Source: a virus. Taken from it: a DNA stretch of 64,000 nt. The translations under genes were made by a program, and so were the position numbers. Under the pieces are notes generated by a model that worked only from the letters and a program-made list of their open reading frames with translations, did no database searches and had not been told where the DNA came from. The first letter of the stretch is position 1, and each line of letters opens with the position of its first letter. Below, piece after piece: positions 28,174 through 44,154 of this stretch. The stretch covers positions 1-64,000 of IMG/VR virus record IMGVR_UViG_3300049845_000008; one strand, written 5' to 3'.

Positions 28174-28998
28174 TTATCCTACGAGAAAATCTGGTGGCAT
28201 TTCCCATGTGCTTCGAAGTTGTTCTTCTAGGCGAATGATATCGGCTACAGCCTCTTCGTAGATGCCTTGCCCGTTGATGATCATACCTCCCGGCAATGTG
28301 TAGTTACCGTACTTCTTCATGTTCTCGCCCCACTGCTTCTTGATAAGCTGCGTAGAGTATTCCTTGAGCCACTCGTCGTTGTAGACCTTGGGGAAGTCCA
28401 CGGGTTCGATGACGCGGGTGCATTCGATCATGAGGTAGGTGTCAGCCGGAACTTCTGGCGCATTCCAGTGCATATCGATGTAGAGCCTGCCCATGTGCTT
28501 GCTGAACCGAATCGGGTTCTGCCCGATAAGAATCATTTCCAACATGCGAATGTGGGTACGGGCAATCCAGTAATACTGGTAGGATGAACTGGTGAATTCG
28601 TAGAGTTCGTTCAGGCGCAACTGGTAGTTCAGGTCAAAGATATTGAAATTAGCACTAGAGCCGCCACCCGAAATGACTTCGCCGGTCAGAGGGAAGATGC
28701 GATTAACACCGACAACCCCTTCTGGCAGCGGAACCCAACCGTAACTGGAATTAGCGACTGTCGAGTTAGCCGAGGTCGCAGAAGCCACGTTGCTGCCGTT
28801 CGCCAACATGTCCGCAGTCATCTTGATGGCTAGGTAGTCGGGGAAGGTCGCATCGTAGTGGAACTGGACGTACTTCTGCAACGCATCGTCAATCCGGTCA
28901 TCGACCTGATCTTCGTCTACGTTAATGTCAATGACTGGAAAGCCTAGCTTGCGTAGGCAGTAGTCCTTGAGTGATGCTTTGTCGGTTGGTTTTGCCAT
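28174..28998 (-). CDS. 13: Neck protein gp13
   Basis: A 274-residue neck protein (T4 309). Recognisable by the N-terminal LKDYCLRKLGFPVIDINVDED, followed by DDALQKYVQFHYDATF, and the C-terminal YSTQLIKKQWGENMKKYGN. It binds gp14 to seal the portal. The upstream late promoter CTAAATA (29038-29044) lies 40 bases before the ATG and overlaps the stop of the first sulfotransferase-like gene. So gp13 begins a separate late unit from the fibre cassette. Confidence 0.9.
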   Translation of the reverse strand: MAKPTDKASLKDYCLRKLGFPVIDINVDEDQVDDRIDDALQKYVQFHYDATFPDYLAIKMTADMLANGSNVASATSANSTVANSSYGWVPLPEGVVGVNRIFPLTGEVISGGGSSANFNIFDLNYQLRLNELYEFTSSSYQYYWIARTHIRMLEMILIGQNPIRFSKHMGRLYIDMHWNAPEVPADTYLMIECTRVIEPVDFPKVYNDEWLKEYSTQLIKKQWGENMKKYGNYTLPGGMIINGQGIYEEAVADIIRLEEQLRSTWEMPPDFLVG

Positions 28999-29037: not shown

Positions 29038-29044
29038 TATTTAG
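29038..29044 (-). promoter_or_regulatory. Late promoter CTAAATA for gp13 and downstream
   Basis: CTAAATA on the minus strand lies 40 bases upstream of ATG 28998. It covers the stop codon of the sulfotransferase-like gene at 29041. Confidence 0.7.
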
Positions 29045-29694
29045 GCAAACTTGATGCCCCTACTCTCAAGGAATCGGTAGTCTTCCTCAAGGTAGTCCCG
29101 AATCTCAGCCTCTTCGTGCGGGGCGAGCGCATCCCGATCCGGCAGGGTGATGGAATCGTTGATTTTGGGAATCGGCATGGGATTATCCACCCCGAGTTGA
29201 GTCAGAATCTTCGAAACCTCGTTTTGGTAGTCTTCGAAGTTCAACGGAATGACGGGACCGGAGAGCCATGGCTTGTGGGTTTTGCCATAGGGACCGCGCT
29301 CCATATGCATCTTAAGCTTGCGAAACACTTCGATCATGGGAATACAGTCACACATTTGCCTCATTTCGTGCTTCTCCCATTCCCAATAGTTCTCCTGAGA
29401 GGTATAGGATGCAGGTAAATAGCTACCATAGAATGCACGAAAGAACTTGGCGTGGTGTCGTCCGCGCCGCAGATAGTTCATGATGGAGATACACCGGTCA
29501 AGCGGATTCCGATAGAATGCGTAACATGTGTACTCATTCAAATTAGGGTATTCTTTCATTTCCTCGTATCTGGTATGAGCCTCGTCACACACGGCTAGTG
29601 GAATACCCAAACCGGCAACCGCCGTTCGAAGTGCCTTGCTTCCGGTCCTAGGTGTGAAGAAAACCATGACCTTTCTTTCAGTGGAAAGTATCAT
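29041..29694 (-). CDS. Sulfotransferase-like protein 1 (217 aa)
   Basis: A 217-residue protein with the sulfotransferase layout. An N-terminal strand and loop TPRTGSKAL (14-22) correspond to the 5'-phosphosulfate loop, which binds PAPS. YRNPLDRCIS (61-70) corresponds to the 3'-phosphate site, with Arg and Ser at the usual places. The C terminus EEDYRFLESRGIKFA is shared with two other genes in this cluster. The family transfers sulfate from PAPS to hydroxyl or amino groups of glycans, proteins or small molecules. It is the last gene of the fibre operon and overlaps the zinc-peptidase-like gene by ATGA. Substrate unknown. Confidence 0.72.
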   Translation of the reverse strand: MILSTERKVMVFFTPRTGSKALRTAVAGLGIPLAVCDEAHTRYEEMKEYPNLNEYTCYAFYRNPLDRCISIMNYLRRGRHHAKFFRAFYGSYLPASYTSQENYWEWEKHEMRQMCDCIPMIEVFRKLKMHMERGPYGKTHKPWLSGPVIPLNFEDYQNEVSKILTQLGVDNPMPIPKINDSITLPDRDALAPHEEAEIRDYLEEDYRFLESRGIKFA

Positions 29695-29990
29695 TGCCCA
29701 TCTTTCAACTTGCGTTCTTCGTCTGTCAGAGGAATGGTTTCCATCAGATCAGCCGCGATTTCATACTTGTTGCCCTTGTAGCCGTGGCGAATGGATTCCC
29801 ACAGGTACGAGAGGTAGAACTTGAACCAACCCTCTTCTTCGACCTGATAGATATGTTCTAGCTCATGGCGGAATAGGCGATCCGTGACTTCCTCTCGCGT
29901 GCGCTTGAAGAAGATGAATGGGTAGATGGTGATGCCGCCGATCCACGTTTTGCGGAGCGGAAGAAAGTGATAGACGATTCTGATTTTCAT
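29691..29990 (-). CDS. Small HExxH zincin-like protein (99 aa)
   Basis: A 99-residue protein with HELEH (42-46), a metallopeptidase-type HExxH, and about 30 residues later NKYEIAAD, whose Glu77 is placed like a third zinc ligand (gluzincin-like Y/N-x-E-x-A). The N-terminal FFKRTREEVTDRLFRHEL and the aromatic segment WFKFYLSYLWES after the motif resemble minimal phage and bacterial peptidases of the DUF4157 or M48-like type. It lies between two sulfotransferase-like genes in the fibre operon. It might process a fibre or act in host entry. Enzyme activity is not proven. Confidence 0.6.
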   Translation of the reverse strand: MKIRIVYHFLPLRKTWIGGITIYPFIFFKRTREEVTDRLFRHELEHIYQVEEEGWFKFYLSYLWESIRHGYKGNKYEIAADLMETIPLTDEERKLKDGQ

Positions 29991-29994
29991 TTTG

Positions 29995-30552
29995 TTATAC
30001 CTTGAAGGTGATGCCTCTTGATTCGAAAAACTCGTAGTCCTGCTTGTAGAATTCCTTTATGTACGTCACTTCTTCGGGAGTCAGGTCATTGACCGTTCTC
30101 CTGTTGTCACTGGCATTCAGCCTAGGAATGTGAATGTTGTCTGGTATGCCAACGATGCGCAACACCTTTCTCATTTCGTTTTCGAAGTCGGCGTAGTCTA
30201 GCAGGTTGACCTTCACCTCCTCCGGATTGAGCCACCGCACCTGCGGCACAAAGTAACCATACTTAGAAACATACTCCATGACGTTGCTGACTGGAACCAT
30301 GTGTGAATACTTCCTGTAGTTGAATGCCATGAAGGACAGAAACTTCTCCACCGGTTCCCGATAGAACGCATAGACCTGATATTCATCAACATTTGGAATA
30401 TCGAGTTGTTTGATGCTAGGGTGATTGGTCTGATTCTCTGTATAGATCTTATCGATTTTACCATGATCCAGTAGAATCTGTCGCAATGTATGCGTACCCG
30501 TCTTGTGTGGGTAGAGGATAATGACTTTCTTTTTGGTGTCTACGTATGCCAT
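29995..30552 (-). CDS. Sulfotransferase-like protein 2 (185 aa)
   Basis: A 185-residue paralogue of the other two: YPHKTGTHTL (14-23) as 5'-phosphosulfate loop, YREPVEKFLS (64-73) as 3'-phosphate site, and the shared end YKQDYEFFESRGITF. The KTGT loop is the canonical form seen in many bacterial sulfotransferases. Shorter than ST1 and ST3 because the middle loop is reduced. Its start shares a base with the stop of the 146-residue structural gene (TAATG). Catalytic competence is plausible from the loops; the acceptor cannot be read. Confidence 0.72.
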   Translation of the reverse strand: MAYVDTKKKVIILYPHKTGTHTLRQILLDHGKIDKIYTENQTNHPSIKQLDIPNVDEYQVYAFYREPVEKFLSFMAFNYRKYSHMVPVSNVMEYVSKYGYFVPQVRWLNPEEVKVNLLDYADFENEMRKVLRIVGIPDNIHIPRLNASDNRRTVNDLTPEEVTYIKEFYKQDYEFFESRGITFKV

Positions 30553-30992
30553 TATTTTTCTGCCGTAGCTGACATGGTATGAGTACCAGTTGCAATAAGA
30601 ACACTGTTTGAGGTGTACCGAATTTCGACAGTGAGTGTTGCATCAAGAGTACCTGCGTTCTGTTGGTCGATTGAATAGCTTCTATCAGTTGCCATACCGA
30701 TCCATGTGTTGTTTGCCCACCCTGCTGAGAATGTTGGAACTGTCGTTCCAGAAGTAAACGTGGCTCTCAACTGATAATCAGCCGAAGCACCCGCCAATCT
30801 CCACGCATAGGAAGAGGCTCCCGTGGTACCAAATACTTGACATGTTCCGTTTGCCCAATGCCAAATAGAAGCATTGGACGAATCTAAACCAGAATCAGCC
30901 ACAGTCTTGTTCTGAACCTGCGCGTCAAGCACAGGCGGTGCAGCCGCCGCTTGCGCGTTGCCATAGGATAGGAGAATGTTGCGAATGCTCAT
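30552..30992 (-). CDS. Virion structural domain protein (146 aa), paralogous to the Hint protein N-domain
   Basis: A 146-residue beta-rich protein with Trp-containing strands (ASIWHWANGT, SAGWANNTWIGM) and a C terminus TSNSVLIATGTHTMSATAEK. It aligns loosely with residues 35-147 of the protein at 31981-32814: both have the pattern ANxTWI..D..., VRIxxxL/VLIxxxx..SA. The domain is probably a tail-fibre or receptor-binding module. It lies between two sulfotransferase-like genes, overlapping both. It may be a partner, substrate or structural carrier. Not identifiable by family name. Confidence 0.55.
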   Translation of the reverse strand: MSIRNILLSYGNAQAAAAPPVLDAQVQNKTVADSGLDSSNASIWHWANGTCQVFGTTGASSYAWRLAGASADYQLRATFTSGTTVPTFSAGWANNTWIGMATDRSYSIDQQNAGTLDATLTVEIRYTSNSVLIATGTHTMSATAEK

Positions 30993-31660
30993 GGGAAGGT
31001 TATTCCCTTGGATGTGAAGAAGTCATAGTCATCCTGATAGAACGCACGAATCTCAGCCGCGTCTTCTGGTGAGAGAATATCGATATCGGGACGCTTCGGT
31101 TGTTCGTTCTCGTTGGGAAGAACCCTGTCAGGATTTGCTCCGAACGCAGTCAGTAGTCTTCTCATTTCCGCGTCGTGATCGTGGAAGTTAAGAAGGATTA
31201 GATTGATGGACGGCTGATTTAGCCAGTTCACTTGCTTCGACCACGCCGCCAATCGCCCACTGTTGATTCGATCCTGCATTGCTCGCCAGACCTGAATCGG
31301 AGTGATGGTGTCGTTTGCAGCCTGCAATTCAGGAGAAAGATCCTCATAGAACTTTCGATTGAGGCATGAAATTCTTGCGCCGTTTCCCAAGACTCTGTGC
31401 ATGATTTCAGCACACCACCGACGCTTCATGAACATCAGCATGGAGAGCGCACGATCTAATGGTTCCCGATAGAACGCATAGAAGGTGAACGCACCCAACT
31501 GTGATTGCATCTGAGGAAACTGAACGAGCATTCCGTCCAGATTGATGTGATCGTGTGAGACATGCGTAAGCGATGCATCCCTGAACACTTCGTAGAGGGA
31601 ATGTGTGGCTGTCTTTGGCGGCATGAATACCGCTAGTTTTCGGGTGTTATCAATGATCAT
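30989..31660 (-). CDS. Sulfotransferase-like protein 3 (223 aa)
   Basis: A 223-residue paralogue with PPKTATHSL (14-22) and YREPLDRALS (64-73), and ends YQDDYDFFTSKGITFP like the others. The 5' loop has Ala for Gly in the usual K-T-G/A-T pattern, which is tolerated in the family. Compared with ST2 it has an inserted helical segment of about 40 residues (from about 100). ATGA overlaps link it to the genes on both sides. It is the first of the three in transcription order. Which of the three are active, and on what, is unknown. Confidence 0.72.
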   Translation of the reverse strand: MIIDNTRKLAVFMPPKTATHSLYEVFRDASLTHVSHDHINLDGMLVQFPQMQSQLGAFTFYAFYREPLDRALSMLMFMKRRWCAEIMHRVLGNGARISCLNRKFYEDLSPELQAANDTITPIQVWRAMQDRINSGRLAAWSKQVNWLNQPSINLILLNFHDHDAEMRRLLTAFGANPDRVLPNENEQPKRPDIDILSPEDAAEIRAFYQDDYDFFTSKGITFP

Positions 31661-31971
31661 TCTGTGTACGTCCCGTTGTAGATGCTCAGAATAACATCCA
31701 CGTTATGATCCTGCATGGCAAGCACATCTGAGTTATTCTCAACCCAACTATCCAACACCAGATCCCGAACGTCGGCGGATGGAATGAAAGTCTGTGGTGT
31801 GGGAGGAGGAAGATCAACCCAATGTGCGCTGCGATACATCTGCCCTGTTTCCAGATCAGTTGTGAGAAGGAACACTCGCAGTCTGGTGTAGACAGTATCG
31901 TTGAAGGTTGCGTCGAAATAGGATTCAGCGTCTTCTAATGGTATGTAGACCTTATGCTTATACGATGCCAT
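31657..31971 (-). CDS. Small fibre-cassette protein (104 aa)
   Basis: A 104-residue soluble protein (MASYKHKVYIPLEDAESYFD), with mixed strands and acidic stretches, no catalytic motif. It lies between the Hint-domain gene (nine bases upstream) and the third sulfotransferase-like gene (ATGA overlap). It may be a chaperone or assembly factor for the fibre proteins, as small genes after fibre genes often are, but nothing in the sequence shows it. Function unknown. Confidence 0.6.
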   Translation of the reverse strand: MASYKHKVYIPLEDAESYFDATFNDTVYTRLRVFLLTTDLETGQMYRSAHWVDLPPPTPQTFIPSADVRDLVLDSWVENNSDVLAMQDHNVDVILSIYNGTYTE

Positions 31972-31980
31972 GATGTAATC

Positions 31981-32814
31981 TCACTTAAAGTTGTGGCTCA
32001 ATACGCCTTCCATGAAGTATGTATGCGCGTCTTCGACTTCGAAGCTTACCACTTCACCGGCACCTACGTAGTCGATTGCGGTGATGGTACTCTTTCCGAG
32101 TCTCATGCCGACGTTCAGCTTACAGGCGCGTATCAGAGTGTCACCGTCTTCCAGATAGAAACGATGCAAGTCCGAACAGATAATTTCCTTGCCATCATCG
32201 AATCTGATGCGAAACTTGATGGCTTGCTGTATCTTGATGTTGGTGATTGGATAGGAACCCAATTCTTTTGTCGTTTCGTGAACCGCAAGCACTTTCATTC
32301 CGACCTTTAGTTCACCCGCACGGATAGTGGATCCATTCGCAAGCGTGATGCGCATACTTGGATCCGGACAACCCAAATACTCATACTCTGCCGAACATTC
32401 ACAATAGACGTTGGATATTAGTTTTAGAGAATTCTTTTCTCGCAATTGCAACCAAAACCGTATGTTGACTGCGGTAGTGGTTGTATAGATTCCCCACCAC
32501 GGATCTGCACCACAATCAATCCACGTATTTGCGGATGAACCCACAAGAGTTCCTCCCGATTGAGAGAAAAATCTTGCGTTGGCTTGATAGTTGTTTGCGC
32601 CGCCACCCTGCAACCAAATCATCTTCGGAAGTGTAGTGGTGAGTGTATTGGCTGTATAGAACGTGCCATTGCCCGTGATTGTATGTCCTCCACTATTCCA
32701 TATCTTAATGTCAGCCTGAGTTCTCGGTCCCGGTGTCACAGCACCCGAATTATAGTTTCGCGATATGAAAGTCCCGAATCTAGACCACTGTTGCGTGCCA
32801 CGCGCCACCGTCAT
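31981..32814 (-). CDS. Structural protein with C-terminal Hint (intein-like) domain (277 aa)
   Basis: Residues 1-148 are a beta-rich domain with Trp, Asn and Thr ([20 protein letters not shown]), related to the 146-residue protein nearby. Residues 149-275 form a Hint domain: Cys149 (block [17 protein letters not shown]), block B-like CSDLHRF (213-219) with His217, and the end [16 protein letters not shown] (260-275). After the terminal His-Asn come only Phe-Lys and the stop. The +1 Phe is not a nucleophile, so protein splicing in the usual sense is not expected. Autocleavage at Cys149 or at Asn275, as in bacterial intein-like domains, is possible. It overlaps the fibre gene by ATGA. Confidence 0.75.
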
Positions 32815-35800
32815 GTGATATCTCCTGAAACAATCGCTTCACCCGTGGTGGTGTAGAAGATGGAGGCTACGGAATACCTTGCGGCAAGGTTCGATGTGAT
32901 GTATCCTGCGGAGTTCAACTTCGCTACGCCCGTCGTGTTGGCAATGGTGACGTTGCCTGTGTTGGTTCTGATGATGGTGATACCGAAGCCTGCGTTGGTT
33001 GCAGCCGCGAGCGTGATCGTCATGGCTGTTGTCGAGTTGCAGAGCAGAACCTTACCTGCATGGTTATCGCTAACCGTTCGTGACGATGTTACCTGAATCA
33101 TCGGCATGTCCGAGACATTGCTCGTCATTCTCACATTGCCGCTGAACAATACGTCCGAAGAAACCGTCGTGCCGAAGGACGTACCCTGAGTACCCTGTCT
33201 TCCCTGTACACCCTGAATACCCTGCGCACCGGTAGCACCTTGCGATCCACCACCGCCACCGGTAGACTCAATGCTTCCTAGGAGATAGATGGCATTGGTT
33301 GCGGCGTAGACGATGGTGACGGCTGAGTTCTGCGAAGCGATGTTCGAAGTGGTGAACGTCGTGCTGTTCGACTTGAGCGCAAGGTTAGCAATCGTGACAT
33401 TGCCTGTTCCCTTACGAACCACCGTGACTGCAAAGCCAGAAGTAGACGAGTTAGCGAACGTGATCGTCGTCGCGGATCCGGAGTTGACTTCGACAATCTT
33501 ACCTGCGGCATTCTCAGCATAGTGCGTAGAAACGGCTGTAGTAATGATGGGTGTGTCAAACACCTGATCAGTGAACACCACGTTTGCGTTGAACGTAACG
33601 TCCGTGGCAACTGTCGTGCCGAACGAAGTACCCTGAATACCTTGAAGCCCTGTTGCGCCCTGAGAGCCAGTACCGGTAGCACCTTGAGTGCCTGTACCTG
33701 TCGTTCCCTGCCGACCTTGAAGCCCCTGAATGCCTTGCAATCCGGTGGTGCCTTGTGCACCCGTAGCACCTTGAGTTCCTGTTCCGGTTGTGCCTTGCGA
33801 TCCAGTTGCGCCTTGAGTACCGGTCAGTCCTTGTAGACCGGTCGTGCCTTGTGATCCACTTCCAGTGAGTCCTTGAAGACCCGTTGCACCTTGCGTGCCT
33901 GTTCCTGTGGTACCTTGAGTTCCAGTCAGTCCTTGTAGACCAGTGGTTCCCTGTGCGCCTGTTGCGCCTTGTGTTCCTGTGCCAGTTGCACCTTGCGTGC
34001 CGGTGCCAGTGGTTCCTTGCAGACCCGTAAGCCCTTGCAGACCAGTGGTTCCCTGCCGTCCTTGAATACCTTGCAATCCGGTCGTACCCTGAGAACCTGT
34101 AGTTCCCTGAATGCCAGTTGTACCTTGAGAACCCGTAGTTCCCTGAATGCCAGTTGTACCTTGTGCGCCGTTCGTCCCTTGCAGTCCAGTCGTACCCTGC
34201 GCACCCTTCCGCGCAACAGCAAGCTTGATCTTGAAGTTGCTAGAGAATGAGGTTGTCGTTCCGTTGTTGATGAGTGAAAGCCCGAATTCATAGTAGCCCG
34301 TCTTATTGGTTTTAGACGTAACAGTATACGAGAAGAACTTGGACGCATCACCCGGATCTTGTAGAAGAAAAATGTCGCCTACATTCGTGTAGTTGAGGAA
34401 CAAGCTTACGTCAACAGCACTATCGTTGAGAATGTCGATCCACATCAACGTTGCGAGTGTGAGGTTTGCGTTGTTCAGCTTCAACTTGCCCGAACCCGGA
34501 TCAGAGTCCGTGGTGCCGGTGTCGAATCGATAGTCCGTTGCTAGCGCAGAAACACCTTCGTTGCCAGTGATGCCCTGAGTTCCTTGCGAACCTGTGGTTC
34601 CCTGCAATCCAGTCAAACCCTGTAGCCCTGTGGTTCCTTGTGAACCTGTGGTGCCTTGCGATCCAGTCAAACCCTGTAGTCCAGTCGTACCCTGCGAACC
34701 CGTCGTTCCTTGGCGACCTTGAATACCTTGCAGACCAGTAAAACCTTGAAGTCCCGTCGTGCCTTGTGCGCCTGTGGTTCCCTGTGCGCCAGTCGAACCT
34801 TGAATGCCTGTAGCACCCTGAGTTCCAGTCGCGCCTTGAGAACCTGTAATGCCCTGTAGTCCCGTTGCGCCCTGAGTTCCTGCACCGGTCGCACCTTGAG
34901 TACCGGTTCCAGTGAGTCCCTGTAGACCAGTCGTTCCCTGTGAACCCGTCGTTCCCTGTGAACCCGTTGTGCCTTGAAGACCCGTTAGTCCTTGCAGCCC
35001 TGTGGTGCCTTGTGCACCCGTGGTGCCTTGTGAACCGGTCGAACCCTGAATGCCTGTGAGTCCCTGTAGTCCGGTTGTTCCCTGTGCGCCAGTGGTGCCT
35101 TGTGATCCGGTGGACCCTTGAATGCCAGTTGCACCTTGAGTACCTGTCGTACCCTGAATCGATGTACCCTGAACACCCTGAATACCTTGTGCGCCTGTTG
35201 CACCGGCTGCGCCGCCGAGATTAACATCCCAATTGGTAAACGTGCCAGAGCCACCCGTGGTTGCAATGGATGCCACCATGGTTCCGTTTGCGACGTAGTA
35301 GGAACTGACGGACCCTTCCATCTTGTTGACAGCCGTGTTTGCGATAACAACAGACTGTCCTGTGGAGTATGCAAGTCCGGTTGCAATGGTAAGTTGCTTA
35401 GTTCCGGTGCCAATTGTCAATGAGGTTGTAGACGTTGTGGCATACTTGTCACCGGCATTGCCCGTCGTGCCTTGAACACCCTGAATTCCCTGTGCACCGA
35501 TTGTTCCTTGTGCACCGGTGAATCCCTGAATGCCAGTAGCCCCTTGTGAGCCAGTCGTACCTTGAACACCCTGAATGCCTTGTGCGCCGGTCGTACCCTG
35601 AGTTCCGGTAAGTCCTTGAAGTCCGGTCGTTCCCTGCCGTCCTTGAATACCTTGCAAACCAGTGATGCCCTGTGCACCGGTCGAACCTTGTGTGCCTGTG
35701 AATCCTTGAATTCCTGTTGCGCCTTGAGAACCAGTCGTGCCTTGTGCGCCAGTGGTTCCCTGAGAACCTGTCGAACCCTGTAGACCAGTGGTTCCCTGCC

Positions 35801-36464
35801 GACCTTGAATGCCTTGGCTTCCGGTCGCACCTTGGCTTCCGGTCGCACCTTGGCTTCCGGTCGCGCCTTGCAACCCTGTCGTTCCCTGTGCACCCGTCGA
35901 ACCCTGAATGCCCGTAGCGCCTTGAGTTCCGGTTGCGCCTTGTGCACCAGTAATACCCTGATTAGAGATACCCTGAATACCTTGAATGCCGGTGAAGCCT
36001 TGAATGCCAGTGGCACCCTGAACACCCGCGCCGGTCAGACCTTGTGTGCCTTGCAGTCCGGTCGATCCCTGAGTACCTGTCGCGCCCTGAGAACCTGTGA
36101 TGCCTTGAATGCCCTGTGCGCCGGTTGATCCCTGAGTTCCAAGTGCGCCTTGCGTACCGGTGGCACCCTGAGTGCCTGTTGTTCCTTGCGGTCCTGCGAC
36201 GGTACCGGCAATGATCATGGAAACGTTGGCGTTGCCGGTCGGTCCCTGCGTCACGGATACGAGAATGTCGCTTGTGTTTACAAAGTTGATTCCGTTGGCA
36301 TTGATGGTGGATGCAGAGTTGGCTGAGACAAGAACTTCGGAGATTCCTCCACCACCGCCGAGTCCACCGCCTGCTTTCCAAGAATAGCCATCCCACTCCC
36401 AAGATGTACCATCATTGGAAGTGAAGATCGTACCGATGATGGGATTGGAAGGAAAGTCTGCCAT
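32811..36464 (-). CDS. Collagen-like tail fibre protein (1217 aa)
   Basis: A 1217-residue fibre. After an N-terminal beta domain (1-90) the protein consists mostly of GxxGxQG triplets ([13 protein letters not shown]-type), the collagen-like Gly-X-Y pattern that builds a trimeric rod. Two non-collagen inserts interrupt it: residues about 337-415 and about 637-755. The C terminus has two tandem copies of a beta domain (SFGTTV-start; about 120 residues each) as a probable receptor-binding tip. A late promoter lies 35 bases upstream (36499-36505), and a stem-loop is in the leader. It is the first gene of the coupled cassette that ends with the sulfotransferase-like gene at 29041. Confidence 0.85.
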
Positions 36465-36498
36465 GAATGTACTCTAAGGTGGAAAGAGCTATGCCACC

Positions 36499-36505
36499 TA
36501 TTTAG
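36499..36505 (-). promoter_or_regulatory. Late promoter CTAAATA of the fibre-sulfotransferase operon
   Basis: CTAAATA on the minus strand lies 35 bases upstream of ATG 36464. Directly downstream, AGGTGG and CCACCT (36494-36499 and 36477-36482 on the plus strand) can pair and form a hairpin near the mRNA 5' end. Confidence 0.75.
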
Positions 36506-36511
36506 CCGCTG

Positions 36512-37264
36512 TCAGATGACGACAACTTGGGATCTAGGTCTAATCACTGCGTCTGCGGTTCCAATCAGTGCGCCTGTCCAAGCTGCCATGACGTTTGCGG
36601 CTGCGACGTTGACGCGAAGATTTCCCGTCTGTCCCGCAGAAGGTTTACGGAAAGTAAGTAGCGCAATGGCACCACCACCACCCGAAGTTGTACCCAAATC
36701 ATGCTGTTTTGTCAAGTTTGTTTCATCACCCGAAGGGGAGTTAATGAAAAGTTGTCCTGCGGCATTGATAATGGCTGCGGCTGAGTCGCGTGCGTGAGTG
36801 ACGTAATTCAGAACGAGTGTGTTGGCTACTGTGGTTGTGACATTTCGGAATGTTACCTGTGCCGAGGCAGTGCTGACCACAACGTTGACACCGGCTGCTG
36901 TTCCAGTATCCCACGGACTACCCGATGTTGGCACATTGTAAAATGCTGACATAACTGCCATCGTATGATCACCAAAGTCAGTGATGGATACAGCCGTCTG
37001 AGATTGTGATGTGGCACGTTGCCACCATACGTCAACTTTTGTAGCCTGTGCACCGCCTAGTGTACCGACCGTGACGTTAGAGTTTGCAACACGCGCCCAA
37101 CCATTGTTCGTCAGGTTGGTGTGGGCTTGTGCGTTGGACTGGTTTGCACCTTCCAAAGCAAGAACTAGAATGTCGTTGACCTGATAGCCGGTCGGAAAAG
37201 TAAGTGTAATCGAACCTGTACCCGAAACATAGGAAGAGTTAGCGCGAAAGGTTGGAGCAGGCAT
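36512..37264 (-). CDS. Fibre-associated structural protein (250 aa)
   Basis: A 250-residue beta-rich protein (FRANSSYVSGTGSITLTFPT, NNGWARVANSNVTVGT), of the carbohydrate-binding or adhesion type often found with phage fibres. Rich in Asn, Thr, Ala; no signal peptide or catalytic motif. The last residues are hydrophobic (RPRSQVVVI). It lies between two collagen-like fibre genes, starting 12 bases after the stop of the 945-residue one. Function as a fibre tip or adaptor is inferred from position. Confidence 0.6.
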   Translation of the reverse strand: MPAPTFRANSSYVSGTGSITLTFPTGYQVNDILVLALEGANQSNAQAHTNLTNNGWARVANSNVTVGTLGGAQATKVDVWWQRATSQSQTAVSITDFGDHTMAVMSAFYNVPTSGSPWDTGTAAGVNVVVSTASAQVTFRNVTTTVANTLVLNYVTHARDSAAAIINAAGQLFINSPSGDETNLTKQHDLGTTSGGGGAIALLTFRKPSAGQTGNLRVNVAAANVMAAWTGALIGTADAVIRPRSQVVVI

Positions 37265-37275
37265 TTCAAATCACC

Positions 37276-40113
37276 TTATGGGTCAAGATGCAACGCAACC
37301 GTGATGACGTTTGCGTTGACTACCGAAGGAGCGGAGTTTACGCGGAACTGAATGACGTTACCGGCAGCGATGACACCCGAAGACCATCCGGTGATGGAAG
37401 CACTGGTGTTCTTGCGAAGCGTGTCTAGTCGTGGAGAATTTGTCTGAGAAATCATGACTTCGTTCGTGAAGTCTGCAAGAGTAGTTGTCCAGATATCTAC
37501 GCGAATCGTAGCCGATGCCGAATTTGCATCCGACATGATTGACCATCCTGCGATGTTGCAGGCTTGTGAAGTGTAGATATAGCCCTTACTCTGTGCGGCT
37601 TCCGTAGTACCTGTCGCAATGATTGCTCCACCACCGTCGATGATGAAGTTGAGTGTGCGAGGACCGGCAATACCTTGAATGCCTGTGAGTCCTTGAAGAC
37701 CCGTCGTTCCTTGCGATCCGGTTCCGGTCGTGCCTTGCGTTCCTTGAAGTCCAGTTAGCCCCTGCAAGCCGGTAGCACCTTGCGTCCCTGCACCGGTAGT
37801 ACCTTGAGTTCCTTGAAGTCCAGTCAGCCCTTGAAGCCCCGTTGCGCCCTGTGTGCCTGCACCCGTGGTTCCTTGCGTCCCTTGAATGCCTTGCAGACCT
37901 GTAGTACCTTGCGAGCCGGTTCCAGTCAGACCTTGCAATCCGGTGGCACCCTGAGTTCCTGTTCCAGTTGTTCCTTGAGTTCCTTGAAGTCCAGTCAAAC
38001 CCTGAATACCGGTTGCGCCTTGAGTTCCCGCGCCGGTTGTACCCTGCGTTCCTTGCAGACCAGTTAGCCCCTGAATGCCTGTTGCACCCTGAGTTCCGGT
38101 TCCGGTCGTTCCCTGAATACCTTGCAACCCGGTCGTGCCTTGTGCGCCCGTGGTGCCTTGGCTACCGGTTCCTGTGAGTCCTTGCAGACCCGTTGCACCT
38201 TGCGTGCCGGTTCCGGTTGTGCCTTGTGTTCCCTGAAGTCCGGTGAGTCCTTGCAGACCTGTTGTACCTTGGCTACCCGAACCCGTAAGTCCTTGCAGCC
38301 CCGTCGTTCCCTGCGAGCCAGTGGTTCCTTGCAGCCCCGTCGTTCCCTGCGAGCCAGTGGTTCCTTGAAGACCTGTGGTGCCTTGTGAACCGGTAGCACC
38401 CTGAGTACCTGCGCCCGTGGTTCCCTGAATACCTTGAAGTCCGGTCGTACCCTGACTTCCGCTTCCAGTCAAACCTTGCAGACCGGTTGAGCCTTGAGTA
38501 CCCGTTGCGCCTTGTGTTCCCGCACCAGTGATGCCTTGAATACCCTGAATACCGGTTGCACCCTGACTTCCGCTGCCGGTCAATCCCTGTAGACCAGTGG
38601 TTCCCTGTGATCCTGTTGTGCCTTGGCTTCCAGTGAGTCCTTGTAGTCCTGTTGCACCTTGAGTTCCGGTTGCACCCTGCGCACCCGAACCAGTCAATCC
38701 CTGTAGACCCGTCGTACCCTGTGAACCGGTGAGTCCTTGCAGCCCTGTGGTTCCTTGTGAGCCAGTGGTTCCCTGAAGTCCGGTTGTTCCCTGCCGACCT
38801 TGCAAGCCTTGGATGCCTTGTAGCCCGGTGGCACCTTGCGAACCACTCGTTCCCTGCGCACCATTCGTTCCCTGAGAACCTGTAAGTCCCTGAATGCCTG
38901 TGAGTCCTTGAAGACCCGTCGTGCCTTGTGCGCCGGTTGTTCCCTGTGAGCCTGTAAGCCCCTGTAGACCAGTTGCGCCTTGCGTACCGGTCGATCCCTG
39001 TAGCCCGGTGGTTCCTTGTGAACCTGTGGATCCCTGTAGACCAGTCGTACCCTGCGAGCCTGTGGATCCCTGTAGACCAGTGGTTCCCTGTGAGCCTGTA
39101 AGCCCCTGTAGTCCTGTAGTGCCTTGCGATCCTGTTGCGCCCTGTGTACCGGCACCGGTCGCACCTTGAGGACCAGTTGCACCGGGAGTTCCTGCGAGGT
39201 TGATGCTCCAAGAAGTGAACGTACCTGTGCCGATGACAGAAGCAACGTCAACCACCAACTGTCCGTTTCCGGCGTTGTAGGAGTTGACCGTACCTTCCAT
39301 GGAGTGCGTCGAGTCATTCGCAATGATGACCGTCTGCCCTGCTGAGTAAGCCAAACCAGTGTCTACCGTCAGTGTCTTCTGTGCGACGGTAATCGAAAGA
39401 GAAGTCGTAGAGGTTGTTACGTATTGGTCGCCGGGTTCACCGAGCGTTCCTTGAACACCCTGAATGCCTTGCAGACCTGTAGTACCTTGCGTACCCGTTG
39501 AACCTTGCAATCCGGTCGTGCCTTGAGAACCTGTAGTTCCTTGGCGACCCTGAATGCCTTGAATACCCTGCAAACCAGTGGTGCCTTGAGTGCCTGTGGT
39601 TCCTTGTGCACCATTCGTTCCCTGTGTGCCGGTTGCACCTTGCGTGCCTGTGCCGGTGAGTCCTTGCAGACCCGTTGCACCTTGCGTACCTGTGCCTGTG
39701 GTTCCCTGTGCACCGGTCGAACCCTGCGTACCACTTCCGGTCAACCCCTGAATGCCGGTCGAACCTTGTGTGCCTGTGAGTCCTTGAAGTCCAGTGGTTC
39801 CCTGTGTTCCTGCGCCCGTGGTGCCTTGCGTTCCGGTTGCGCCTTGTAATCCAGTGGTGCCTTGAACACCCTGAATGCCTTGGGATCCGTCGCCCGTTCC
39901 ACCGCCGCCTGCCGGTCCTTGAATACCCTGAATGCCTTGTGCGCCGTTGCCCGTTCCACCACCGGGACCGACAAAGTATCCGGCTGAGTTGATGACGAGT
40001 TGATTACCAACCTGAACCTCGGCTGCATTGACAACACCGTTCGCCAACACCACGTTTGCGAGCGTGTTGCTGCTGTTAATGCGAATCTGTTTTGAGGTAG
40101 GCTTGTTTGGCAT
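37276..40113 (-). CDS. Collagen-like tail fibre protein (945 aa)
   Basis: A 945-residue fibre with a short N-terminal domain (1-55), then collagen-like Gly-X-Y triplets ([16 protein letters not shown]-type) over most of its length, one insert (residues about 230-305), and a C-terminal beta domain (about 840-945, [20 protein letters not shown]). The insert [13 protein letters not shown] is homologous to that of the 1217-residue fibre. A late promoter (40138-40144) is 25 bases upstream. It may form a trimeric rod. The repeat DNA makes it prone to recombination with the neighbouring fibre genes. Confidence 0.83.
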
Positions 40114-40137
40114 GTTCTTTTTCCGGAAGGATCCTGA

Positions 40138-40144
40138 TATTTAG
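40138..40144 (-). promoter_or_regulatory. Late promoter CTAAATA for the 945-residue fibre
   Basis: CTAAATA on the minus strand lies 25 bases upstream of ATG 40113. Confidence 0.72.
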
Positions 40145-40146
40145 GC

Positions 40147-40593
40147 TTATGCCCAAATCCTTCGCCTGTTCTTTACGTTTGCAGGATCGAATAGCTTCAC
40201 GTTATTCGGTCCCACATAGCCGGGAGGTTCGCCTGCGCGTGAGATATCTTCCCATACCAGACCGGGAATGAGGGAAAGAATGCGAGTTCGCTCAAAGACG
40301 TTGCCTTCTGTGGGCATTCCTTCTGTTAACAGTTCTTCTAACGCGCCACCGGCAATCAGAATATTCACATGATGCCCATAGACGATTTCGGGTGGAGTCG
40401 TCGGAATGCCATTGACAAAGACGGATTCCTTCTTTACTAGGTTGCCAATCTCGTCCACATGAAGTCCCGGCACATAGAGTAAAGAACCGGTTTCGGTTAT
40501 GGTCGCGAGTGGCGTTCCATCCGGCAGATAGGTCGAGGTCATTCCTTGAATGAATTCTTCTCTTGTCGGAACGTAGACTAGAATCTCAATCAT
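40147..40593 (-). CDS. Hypothetical fibre-cassette protein (148 aa)
   Basis: A 148-residue soluble protein, MIEILVYVPTREEFIQGMTS, with acidic and hydrophobic alternation and a basic C terminus (NVKNRRRIWA). No known family seen. It follows the 1185-residue lectin-like gene by three bases and precedes a late promoter. It might be a tail-fibre assembly chaperone or an attachment adaptor; nothing in the sequence decides. Confidence 0.6.
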   Translation of the reverse strand: MIEILVYVPTREEFIQGMTSTYLPDGTPLATITETGSLLYVPGLHVDEIGNLVKKESVFVNGIPTTPPEIVYGHHVNILIAGGALEELLTEGMPTEGNVFERTRILSLIPGLVWEDISRAGEPPGYVGPNNVKLFDPANVKNRRRIWA

Positions 40594-40596
40594 GCG

Positions 40597-43500
40597 TCAT
40601 TCTCCCTTCTTCACCATTTCTCTAAGAGCGAGGGTGGTGATTCCAAAAGGAATGAACACGAATCTCTTGATGCAGGAGTTGAAAGCATTGTTGGTTGTTT
40701 GACCAAATCGAATTGTGTAACCACCCCTAAACGTACCGTTGCCTTGAGCTTCTGAGGATGTTGTGGCTCTTGTTCCACAATATGCACGGAGCGTTCTTCC
40801 TTCGTCACCCCACGACATAGCCATCTTGTAGGTACCCGGCTTAGACAACTGAGGCATTGCCGCAGAGACAACAGCGTTAGAGAAGTTTATTGAGGCTGGA
40901 TTGTTGTTGTAGCCGATGGTTTGATTGCCGATGTTTCCTAAGTTTGTAATTGTCGCATAATGCCCATAGAAGTATTGCATCGTAGGGTTCTGAACGAATT
41001 CGATGTATATGGTTCCCTGACCGGTTGAAAATGCTGATGAATAAGCAGTATTAGACAACAGAACAGTCTCGACCGCTCTGGTAGCCGCTACCGTTTCGGT
41101 GTAGATGGGAGTCGTCATAATTCCAGAGGATGCTCCAACAGGCGGAATCTCAATCTGTGCAAAGTCGAGTGCAAGTTCATCACCAGAGGTTACGATTCTG
41201 ATACCACAAGCAGGATTGCTTGTGATGGAAGACAAATACACGCGAGTCCAGTTCTCATCGATTGAGAAGTCTGTCCATATCAGCCCGTCCATGCTGATCT
41301 GAACGACACCCGTGCCGGTCAGCCGCTTCACATAGATTCCCGATGCCCACCATCCGTGTCCGCGAGTGATTTGCTGAATAATGGTTGCATTGGCTCCGGT
41401 CGCGGTAAACCGTGTGGCGGTGTTTACTCTGCCGTCAATACCAGTCTCCGTCAGAGCAACGGTAGCATTGGTCTTTGTCCATGCTGATTGGGTGCCATCA
41501 CGACACCACAGAAGTTCATTGGTTCTTGCTTCCTCTTGAAACAGCCCGTTACAGACTGGCATTGTCTTGAGAAGAGCATAGTATGGATATATCTGATTGG
41601 TTGCTTCATACGTAGTGTTTGCATTGGCTTGTTCTAGCTGCGCACCCCAAATGCGAATGCCGTCCGATCCATTCGGTGTAAATGTGTTGAAGATTGAGTT
41701 TGAGTTCAGTCCTGCGCTCACGTTCAGGCTTGAACGGGGTCCAGTGAGAATGGTTCCGCGAGTGACTGTTGTTCCCGTATTTGCTTTCACCGAGCAACGA
41801 TACCAACCATCACCCACCGAATTGATTTCGGTCGTATTGGCGTAAACTCCGTTTGCGATGAGCGTTCCGGAAATCAGGTTGTAGGTCGCTGAGTGACCCA
41901 CCGGATTTGTTGCATCCGAACCAACGCCCAACATGAGCGTATGATATTCATCAGCCTTTGCGTAGACTGAGAAAGTGTGTGGTACTGTTGATGTTGTAGC
42001 CGGTCTTTGGAAGATGCCGTGGGTATTTGAGCTTACACCAGTTCCGATGAGTTTCAGTGCGTTGTTCCCACCATCCGGTGAAGGATAGAAGATTGGAGCA
42101 TATGCATATTGGGCTGTAGCGGTGGTACTGTTGGCAAAGGCTTCGTTGACATTTCCCGGCACAACCTGCGCCTTGTACAGAATCACATCGGAGTTGGCTA
42201 CGGCTACATGAGAAGGTGCGCGACCATTCACGATACTATTGCCAGTGAAAGATATGGTCAAACCGGCTGCGCCGGAAGTCAGATTCGAAGTGGCTGTCAT
42301 TATCAAATCGTAGACACCATTACCTACGCTAATAATGCTTGGAGTACAGTTGAAGGAGTTTTCAATTGCTCCGGTGGTGACGTTGAAGTTGGCAAATGAG
42401 TTTGGGAAGTTTGATCCACTACCAGAAAGCTGAATGATGGATTGAGCATTTGCGCCAGTTCCTTTCTTGACACGCACACTACTTGTATATTCTGTTCCGG
42501 AGTATGATTGAAAACCGGCACTGGCAATCATGTGTTGCGATGAACCCACTGTTGCGGTAAACACATTTGCGCCGGGAGAGCCGGTGACAGATCCGCCTGT
42601 TTTTGTCCAGTTAGACAGTGAGAAATCTTCAGACGATTGCACCAAACTTGCCTTGATGTTTGCAGATAGAGCGGTCCAATAGATGTAGAAGTCTTCCGAA
42701 GAAACAAGAAGATTCTTACTGGACGTATTCGCCATGTAGGACGAAAGTGGTCCTTCTTCAAACTGCGCACCCCAAATGTACATGTATTTGGTAGGGTCGC
42801 CAGTGTACGTGGCTTGTCCATCGGCTGTATTGATGTACAGGTTAGGGTTCAAGCTATTCGTTACTGATGTAAACGTGACAGAGCAACGATACCACCCGTT
42901 TCCAACATTGGCGATTGCGGCTGTGTGGAGAGAGTTTGCCGTTGCGACGGTTCCGCCTGCAATATTGAACCATGTTCTTACACCACCATCAGGACTCAAG
43001 GAAATGAAATCTCTATTTCCTTGCTTCACATAGTAACTCAGCGTGTACACTTTACCGGGAATGAATGCGACTATGTTTGGCGACCGGTTCAGAATGTGGT
43101 TGTTATTAACAGAGGTTTCTGAAAGCTTGGCTGCGGTGTATGAACCATCCGGAGCGGTGGTTTCCGGAGTGTCCGGAATGAGTGTTGTCGATCCTCCTGC
43201 GGTTGACCAATTGGCACCAACGAAATTATCTGAGGATGGAATGATGTTCTTATTCGTCCATGAACAGAACTGCCAGTCGAAACGCGGCAGTCCGTAATTG
43301 GTTTCGATGAATGGTGAAGCAGAAGCACCTGCCTCAATTTGTACACCCCAAACATACACACTGGATATATCGTCGCCAGTATAGGTGAAGTTGAGTGCGT
43401 CGGTTACTTGCTGTGCCAGAGAAAAGAAAGCACTGGATACGCCCGATGATTGAGCGACCCAAGAAACCACGCAGCGATACCAACCATCACCAACATCCGT

Positions 43501-44154
43501 AATAGAGGCAGTGGCAGAACCGGTTCCATTGACGCTTGTGGCTGTTCCGTTTTGAAGGTCGAACACTCCACCAGATGATCCGCTGACAGCAAAGTTTCCA
43601 TATATCTGAAAGAATCGACTACCGACACCCGCTTTAGCATAAGCAGAATATGTGTAGGTGTTGCCACCGACAACAGTGACAACAGCAGCACTTGTCACCA
43701 ATTGATGAACAGATGAAACGCTACTCTCTGTGATCAGACAGGCTGACAGAGAACCATTTGGCGCAGGAAAATTCTCACCCAAATAAACGTTGTTTTTCTG
43801 CCATACGTTATTGTCACCAAACCTTTGATATGCTCCTGACAAAATTTGATTTGGATTGGTCGTTGAATACTTCAACAGACCGTCTTGCCCAATATAGCTG
43901 CCGTTGGATGGACGAGTGAAGATGATCTGATCCATCGCGCTGCCCTTACCAAACCCCTTTACGTATCCAATGTTGTTGGAGAAGTCAAGGTCGATGGTGG
44001 CTCCCGGCAGAATGCCGATATCCTTGTATTCGCCTTCTGTGATTGGAAGCGTTCTGAGCTTCTTGCGCAGATTCGGACCACGCGAAAGGGCTGATCCTTG
44101 CACAGCAAGGTCAGTCGTCATGCGATTCAGCCCATGGGATAGCTTTTCACTCAT
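40597..44154 (-). CDS. Multi-domain tail fibre/adhesin with repeated carbohydrate-binding-like modules (1185 aa)
   Basis: An 1185-residue protein with an N-terminal attachment domain (1-100) and then at least four tandem CBM-like beta-sandwich modules of about 180 residues. Each has a WYRC or related turn (DVGDGWYRCVVSW, NVGNGWYRCSVTF, SVGDGWYRCSVKA, SVGNGVYDLIMTA) and an ending YVWGVQIEAG/YIWGAQFEEG/RIWGAQLEQA. A fifth, divergent module and a C-terminal LamG-like domain follow. Such modules bind polysaccharides, so it is probably an adhesin for a host capsule, LPS or exopolysaccharide. No catalytic residues were recognised. The gene is followed by the 148-residue one. Confidence 0.8.
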   Translation of the reverse strand: MSEKLSHGLNRMTTDLAVQGSALSRGPNLRKKLRTLPITEGEYKDIGILPGATIDLDFSNNIGYVKGFGKGSAMDQIIFTRPSNGSYIGQDGLLKYSTTNPNQILSGAYQRFGDNNVWQKNNVYLGENFPAPNGSLSACLITESSVSSVHQLVTSAAVVTVVGGNTYTYSAYAKAGVGSRFFQIYGNFAVSGSSGGVFDLQNGTATSVNGTGSATASITDVGDGWYRCVVSWVAQSSGVSSAFFSLAQQVTDALNFTYTGDDISSVYVWGVQIEAGASASPFIETNYGLPRFDWQFCSWTNKNIIPSSDNFVGANWSTAGGSTTLIPDTPETTAPDGSYTAAKLSETSVNNNHILNRSPNIVAFIPGKVYTLSYYVKQGNRDFISLSPDGGVRTWFNIAGGTVATANSLHTAAIANVGNGWYRCSVTFTSVTNSLNPNLYINTADGQATYTGDPTKYMYIWGAQFEEGPLSSYMANTSSKNLLVSSEDFYIYWTALSANIKASLVQSSEDFSLSNWTKTGGSVTGSPGANVFTATVGSSQHMIASAGFQSYSGTEYTSSVRVKKGTGANAQSIIQLSGSGSNFPNSFANFNVTTGAIENSFNCTPSIISVGNGVYDLIMTATSNLTSGAAGLTISFTGNSIVNGRAPSHVAVANSDVILYKAQVVPGNVNEAFANSTTATAQYAYAPIFYPSPDGGNNALKLIGTGVSSNTHGIFQRPATTSTVPHTFSVYAKADEYHTLMLGVGSDATNPVGHSATYNLISGTLIANGVYANTTEINSVGDGWYRCSVKANTGTTVTRGTILTGPRSSLNVSAGLNSNSIFNTFTPNGSDGIRIWGAQLEQANANTTYEATNQIYPYYALLKTMPVCNGLFQEEARTNELLWCRDGTQSAWTKTNATVALTETGIDGRVNTATRFTATGANATIIQQITRGHGWWASGIYVKRLTGTGVVQISMDGLIWTDFSIDENWTRVYLSSITSNPACGIRIVTSGDELALDFAQIEIPPVGASSGIMTTPIYTETVAATRAVETVLLSNTAYSSAFSTGQGTIYIEFVQNPTMQYFYGHYATITNLGNIGNQTIGYNNNPASINFSNAVVSAAMPQLSKPGTYKMAMSWGDEGRTLRAYCGTRATTSSEAQGNGTFRGGYTIRFGQTTNNAFNSCIKRFVFIPFGITTLALREMVKKGE

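Follow-up and report, generated by a model that had tools for sequence, protein, structure and literature searches.

Three genes on the minus strand of a 64,000-nt stretch of viral DNA (hereafter the window) almost certainly belong, by class, to the P-loop PAPS-dependent sulfotransferases, and they are interleaved with virion-type genes in what looks like one late unit headed by a collagen-like tail fibre gene. With moderate confidence, we propose that they encode O-sulfotransferases that are made late, act on separate acceptors of the phage fibre or tip and pass between phages as cassettes. The window is part of an incomplete viral record of 73.8 kb whose terminase, sheath, sheath stabiliser and neck genes indicate a T4-like phage, and its sole DNA match in a collection of cultured phages was a short one to the sheath gene of Stenotrophomonas phage DLP_6. 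The genes of the unit and its boundaries are given below in the order of minus-strand transcription, with the enzymes termed W1 to W3 and loci in other contigs and genomes carrying L numbers.

36499..36505, minus strand: late-promoter-like CTAAATA ahead of the fibre gene (motif count)
32811..36464, minus strand: collagen-like tail fibre of 1217 aa that heads the unit (phrog_6320 tail fiber, 7.6e-136)
31981..32814, minus strand: C6-Hint, C6-cluster protein of 277 aa with a C-terminal Hint (intein-like) domain (PT-HINT 1.5e-4, under its cut-off)
31657..31971, minus strand: C12, 104 aa, directly upstream of W3
30989..31660, minus strand: W3, predicted sulfotransferase, 223 aa (PHROG 3347, 0.0016; tree set with W1, L021 and L035, 98/96)
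30552..30992, minus strand: C6, putative virion-type beta protein, 146 aa, directly upstream of W2
29995..30552, minus strand: W2, predicted sulfotransferase, 185 aa (PF03567, 6.1e-7; PHROG 3347, 4.4e-7)
29691..29990, minus strand: C10, HExxH protein, 99 aa (phrog_37302, 7.6e-7; phrog_15610 'protease', 1.2e-4)
29041..29694, minus strand: W1, predicted sulfotransferase, 217 aa (PHROG 3347, 0.0097; 42% identity to L035)
29038..29044, minus strand: second CTAAATA, ahead of the gp13-like gene and overlapping the stop codon of W1 (motif count)
28174..28998, minus strand: gp13-like neck gene, end of the variable fibre slot (phrog_211 head-tail adaptor Ad2, 1.2e-34)

The eight genes from the fibre to W1 form a block between the fibre genes and the gp13-like neck gene. 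Four-base overlaps join the fibre gene to C6-Hint (32811/32814), C12 to W3 (31657/31660), W3 to C6 (30989/30992) and C10 to W1 (29691/29694), while C6 and W2 share one base of a TAATG at 30552 and gaps of 9 and 4 bases lie between C6-Hint and C12 (31971/31981) and between W2 and C10 (29990/29995). Tight coupling to the fibre gene, as claimed in a first-pass annotation of this DNA, thus holds at every junction, with neighbouring genes either overlapping or no more than nine bases apart. The CTAAATA sequence that the annotation had taken for a late promoter is present at the fibre gene, and the motif occurs eight times on the minus strand and not at all on the plus strand (shuffle mean 3.0; eight reached in 1 of 100 shuffles). 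As one copy precedes the fibre gene and a second lies at the W1 stop codon before the gp13-like gene, the unit is bounded on both sides. From this motif the eight genes look like one late transcription unit, and both the promoter motifs and the gene coupling support the claim that they are expressed late alongside the fibre. Across 30552-44154, third-position GC was 41–51% in the fibre, C6 and C12 genes against 60–66% in the genes from neck to sheath, a difference that would fit a separate history of the fibre block.

The open reading frames of W1, W2 and W3 were found with the lengths and positions first reported for these claimed paralogues, and all three carry the motifs attributed to them: a 5'-loop beginning at residues 14–16 (TPRTGS in W1, PHKTGT in W2 and PPKTAT in W3), a YAFYR sequence 43–46 residues after the loop (residue 58 in W1, 61 in W2 and W3) and a common DYxFxxSxGIxF at the C-terminal end. 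Pairwise local alignment scores among them were 33–48 SD above 300 shuffles, which places their homology beyond chance and rules out a coincidence of motifs. A Pfam search matched W2 to PF03567 (Sulfotransfer_2) at 30.3 bits over a curated cut-off of 22 but gave no PF03567 match for W1 or W3; at E 0.01 this profile matched 13 of 26 family members. All three matched PHROG 3347 at the E values listed above, weakly in the case of W1, and NCBIfam returned nothing for any of them. Profile searches against PDB sequences gave weak matches only (3rnl, HS6ST), so fold comparison was used instead, with AlphaFold2 models of W2 (pLDDT 93.4) and W1 (pLDDT 85.5) compared to the PDB and W3 placed by sequence homology. 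The best match of the W2 model was HS 2-O-sulfotransferase (4ndz; Z 11.0, 3.3 A over 169 residues, 14% identity) and that of the W1 model was heparan-sulfate 3-O-sulfotransferase-3 (Z 10.3), where entries within Z 1 are tied and the fold therefore cannot name the acceptor. The best 50 PDB entries for each model were all sulfotransferases or their close kin, with cytosolic SULT among the matches.

Relatives were collected in two scans of viral contigs, in which alignment queries worked and a single-sequence query with W2 was unsuccessful, and 26 members were aligned with a mean column identity of about 26%. The PAPS-loop Lys/Arg (W2 residue 17) is present in 26/26 members (K in 21, including W2 and W3; R in 5, including W1), as is the Arg of the 3'-phosphate site (R65), with the Ser eight residues on (S73) kept in 25/26. 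Additionally, all 26 share one Asn and, at the 3'-site, a Phe, Arg and Pro, and a candidate catalytic His, located between the two PAPS motifs some 20–25 residues before the 3'-site Arg, is found in 25/26. This residue set fits published roles, as sulfotransferases share a loop Lys/Arg, a Ser at the 3'-site and a base that is either His or Glu (PMC11625862) and the H142A variant of HS2ST is reported to have an activity of <1% (PMC6094399). The PAPS-dependent sulfotransferase identity put forward in the first-pass annotation is strongly supported by the Pfam and PHROG matches, the fold and the Lys/Arg-Arg-Ser-His conservation; the annotation had named a missing PAPS pocket or poor Lys/Arg/Ser conservation as evidence against itself, and the sulfotransferase fold is predicted and these residues are kept in relatives. 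The dN/dS values for the three enzyme copies of contig pair L027/L031 were 0, 0.07 and 0.04, a range that shows purifying selection and would mark genes maintained as working proteins, and the value for contig pair L030/L032 was 0.35.

Phylogenetic analysis placed W2 with single genes of L027, L028 and L029 (100/99; 49–59% identity) and paired W1 with L035 (100/98). As W1 and W2 have their nearest kin in other phages and W3 groups with W1 and genes from two other phages, the three genes are not recent duplicates, and a recent triplication in place is rejected by the tree. L027 and L031 each likewise have a cluster of three, in which a single copy is of the W2 type and the remaining two come from other lineages. 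Two copies each were present in L002, L019, L025 and L029, while the 172.6-kb record of L035 had a second sulfotransferase match 15 kb from the first. This second match (contig G005, 70526-71125) consists of two pieces of one frame. Overall, the pattern looks like cassette exchange within a fixed slot rather than local duplication. The earlier suggestion that the three copies have separate roles is upheld in so far as the tree supports distinct lineages, although they are not duplicates that arose in the present phage and have apparently been exchanged between phages.

Particular neighbours accompany particular lineages. A C6-type protein is encoded directly upstream of every W2-type gene (the window, L027, L028, L029 and L031), and in the window, L021, L025 and L035 the next gene after C12 is that of a sulfotransferase. 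When used as queries alone, the C6 alignment returned only sulfotransferase-bearing contigs and the C12 alignment only loci with C12 before a sulfotransferase, in searches limited by the pattern method that yielded few independent lineages and few contigs, all of the latter known already from the enzyme searches. C6 and C12 are called virion-type from context and composition, and C6 is a candidate acceptor, or acceptor carrier, for the W2-type enzyme. C6, the interleaved 'structural protein' of the first-pass annotation, shares a sequence cluster with C6-Hint; the latter ends in SHNFK, and L027 and L031 also encode Hint-bearing members of the cluster, pointing to tip proteins capable of self-cleavage or self-splicing. 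The C10 cluster has eight members with the HExxH motif kept within a conserved RHE(L/M)(E/Q)H(I/V)YQV, encoded just before the gp13-like gene in eight sulfotransferase loci, and a single distant match among cultured phages (Phage C48C1).

The fibre/neck slot and its fixed partners recur across many phages, and the gene neighbourhoods of relatives suggest a protein-decoration locus. A 2OG-Fe(II) oxygenase gene adjoins the enzyme gene or is one gene off in L002, L003, L011, L015, L021, L024, L034 and L037, and glycosyltransferases occur at the enzyme loci of L002 and L003. Proteins rich in short repeats of the NYNPFVPG or SYNAQNPA type are encoded upstream of the oxygenase and sulfotransferase genes (L002:5820-7259; L011:6596-7402), and their Tyr, Pro and Asn residues are possible modification sites. 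In sphingomonad and other genomes (L048, L050, L051 and L055), a common fibre-gene cassette that includes a long-tail-fibre distal subunit homologue and a beta-propeller protein is followed, after a 3-base gap, by a sulfotransferase gene, so the fibre link recurs outside the T4-like group. This near-identical cassette (L048:3496-8663) was present in Novosphingobium, Sandarakinorhabdus and a Rhizobium MAG, has a recombinase-like gene nearby in L048 and is probably a shared prophage or phage-derived element.

Taken as a mechanism, W1, W2 and W3 would be active PAPS-dependent O-sulfotransferases produced late together with the tail fibre, with PAPS presumably supplied by the host because no APS kinase (PF01583) was found in the 73.8-kb record. 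The loop Lys/Arg and the 3'-site Arg and Ser would bind PAPS, and the conserved His would deprotonate the acceptor. Each enzyme may sulfate its own acceptor, a protein side chain or an attached sugar, on the fibre or tip under assembly, and the likely outcome would be that the host-recognition structure changes in charge and receptor binding, with an effect on adsorption. Each may also move between phages in the company of the gene for its acceptor or adaptor, which would be C6 for the W2 type and C12 for W3 and similar enzymes. Of the 1217 residues of the collagen-like fibre, 16 are Tyr and 243 are Thr; Tyr sulfation along the shaft is therefore unlikely, but this composition does not decide the acceptor. 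As no glycosyltransferase of PF00534 or PF00535 and no 2OG oxygenase (PF13640) was found in the 73.8-kb record, any sugar acceptor on the fibre would have to depend on an enzyme of the host, on a gene of another family or on one lying outside the incomplete record.

In the main rival explanation, the late target of the enzymes is a polysaccharide of the host surface (LPS or capsule), whose sulfation would block superinfection or prevent progeny from sticking to debris. As neither glycosyltransferase family sought was found in the record, a sugar acceptor might be the host's. The closest folds are indeed those of polysaccharide sulfotransferases, rhizobial LpsS sulfates LPS (PMC12445080), and glycosyltransferases in the same T4-like slot, the host recognition cluster of pelagimyophages, have been read as host-surface modifiers (PMC7029224). 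However, the enzyme genes lie within the late unit of the fibre and share its end boundary, particular lineages retain particular structural-type neighbours, and the sphingomonad gene directly follows fibre genes and is not in a polysaccharide cluster. We therefore regard a host-surface acceptor as unlikely; a virion acceptor fits the repeated association with virion-type genes better and is probable for W1, W2 and W3.

Fixed neighbours in some lineages would also suit a sulfotransferase fold that has been kept for a non-catalytic role, as an assembly or chaperone factor for neighbouring tip proteins, and assembly genes often come after phage tail-fibre genes. Such a role is very improbable, as the PAPS-site residues and candidate His are among the best-kept positions of an otherwise divergent alignment and binding to diverse partners alone would need neither. 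The least probable reading is a usual metabolic gene acting on a host small molecule, nucleotide or lipid, for which the PHROG category ('moron, auxiliary metabolic gene and host takeover') and the SULT structures among the model matches may speak, but three copies of separate lineages in one fibre unit, paired with structural-type genes, are unexpected for metabolism.

Virion sulfation, the role favoured here, is concrete and testable for phage sulfotransferases by virtue of their fixed pairing with tail-fibre and tip-type genes, and C6 and C12 are named as its candidate acceptors. More tentatively, and with rather less than even confidence, we suggest that such phages carry exchangeable cassettes of an acceptor tip protein and a dedicated sulfotransferase, which can be stacked (as many as three were seen) and which sulfate their own host-recognition fibres to tune receptor binding; we found no description of virion modification by such sulfation cassettes in the literature. 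If virion sulfation is true, sequence-based prediction of host range ignores a sulfate modification on which some phages would rely to recognise their hosts.

Phage sulfotransferases are already known (PMC10580990, PMC8290583) and have repeatedly been reported as auxiliary metabolic genes, with a role stated as unclear (PMC10580990). PHROG 3347 ('Galactose-3-O-sulfotransferase', phages) and the annotated enzymes of P-SSM7, ACG-2014f, SIO1 (gp5.1) and RSL1 have the fold and motif set of W1, W2 and W3; the window-family profile matched P-SSM7 PSSM7_018, encoded right after gp5, at 1.3e-7 and SIO1 gp5.1 at 6e-4, and Foldseek also matched annotated phage sulfotransferases. The PHROG name implies an acceptor, and no test on phage members was found in the literature. 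In comparison to these enzymes, the window members are too distant for tblastn (W1, W2, W3, C6 and the enzymes of four relatives gave no match in 50,697 phage records) and represent three lineages in one fibre unit, each with its own neighbours. The PAPS loop, the Arg/Ser 3'-site and the His preceding it are likenesses to HS2ST. HS2ST is a longer eukaryotic Golgi enzyme that acts on iduronate in heparan sulfate, whereas the phage enzymes have 185–223 aa, and the inserts that separate their 3'-site from the QxxW segment vary. The host recognition cluster of T4-like phages occupies the same variable slot, which contains tail-fibre and modification genes and lies immediately ahead of the neck genes; it was described with glycosyltransferases and without mention of sulfotransferases (PMC7029224). 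What is new here is the presence of partner-linked sulfotransferases of several lineages inside a late fibre unit.
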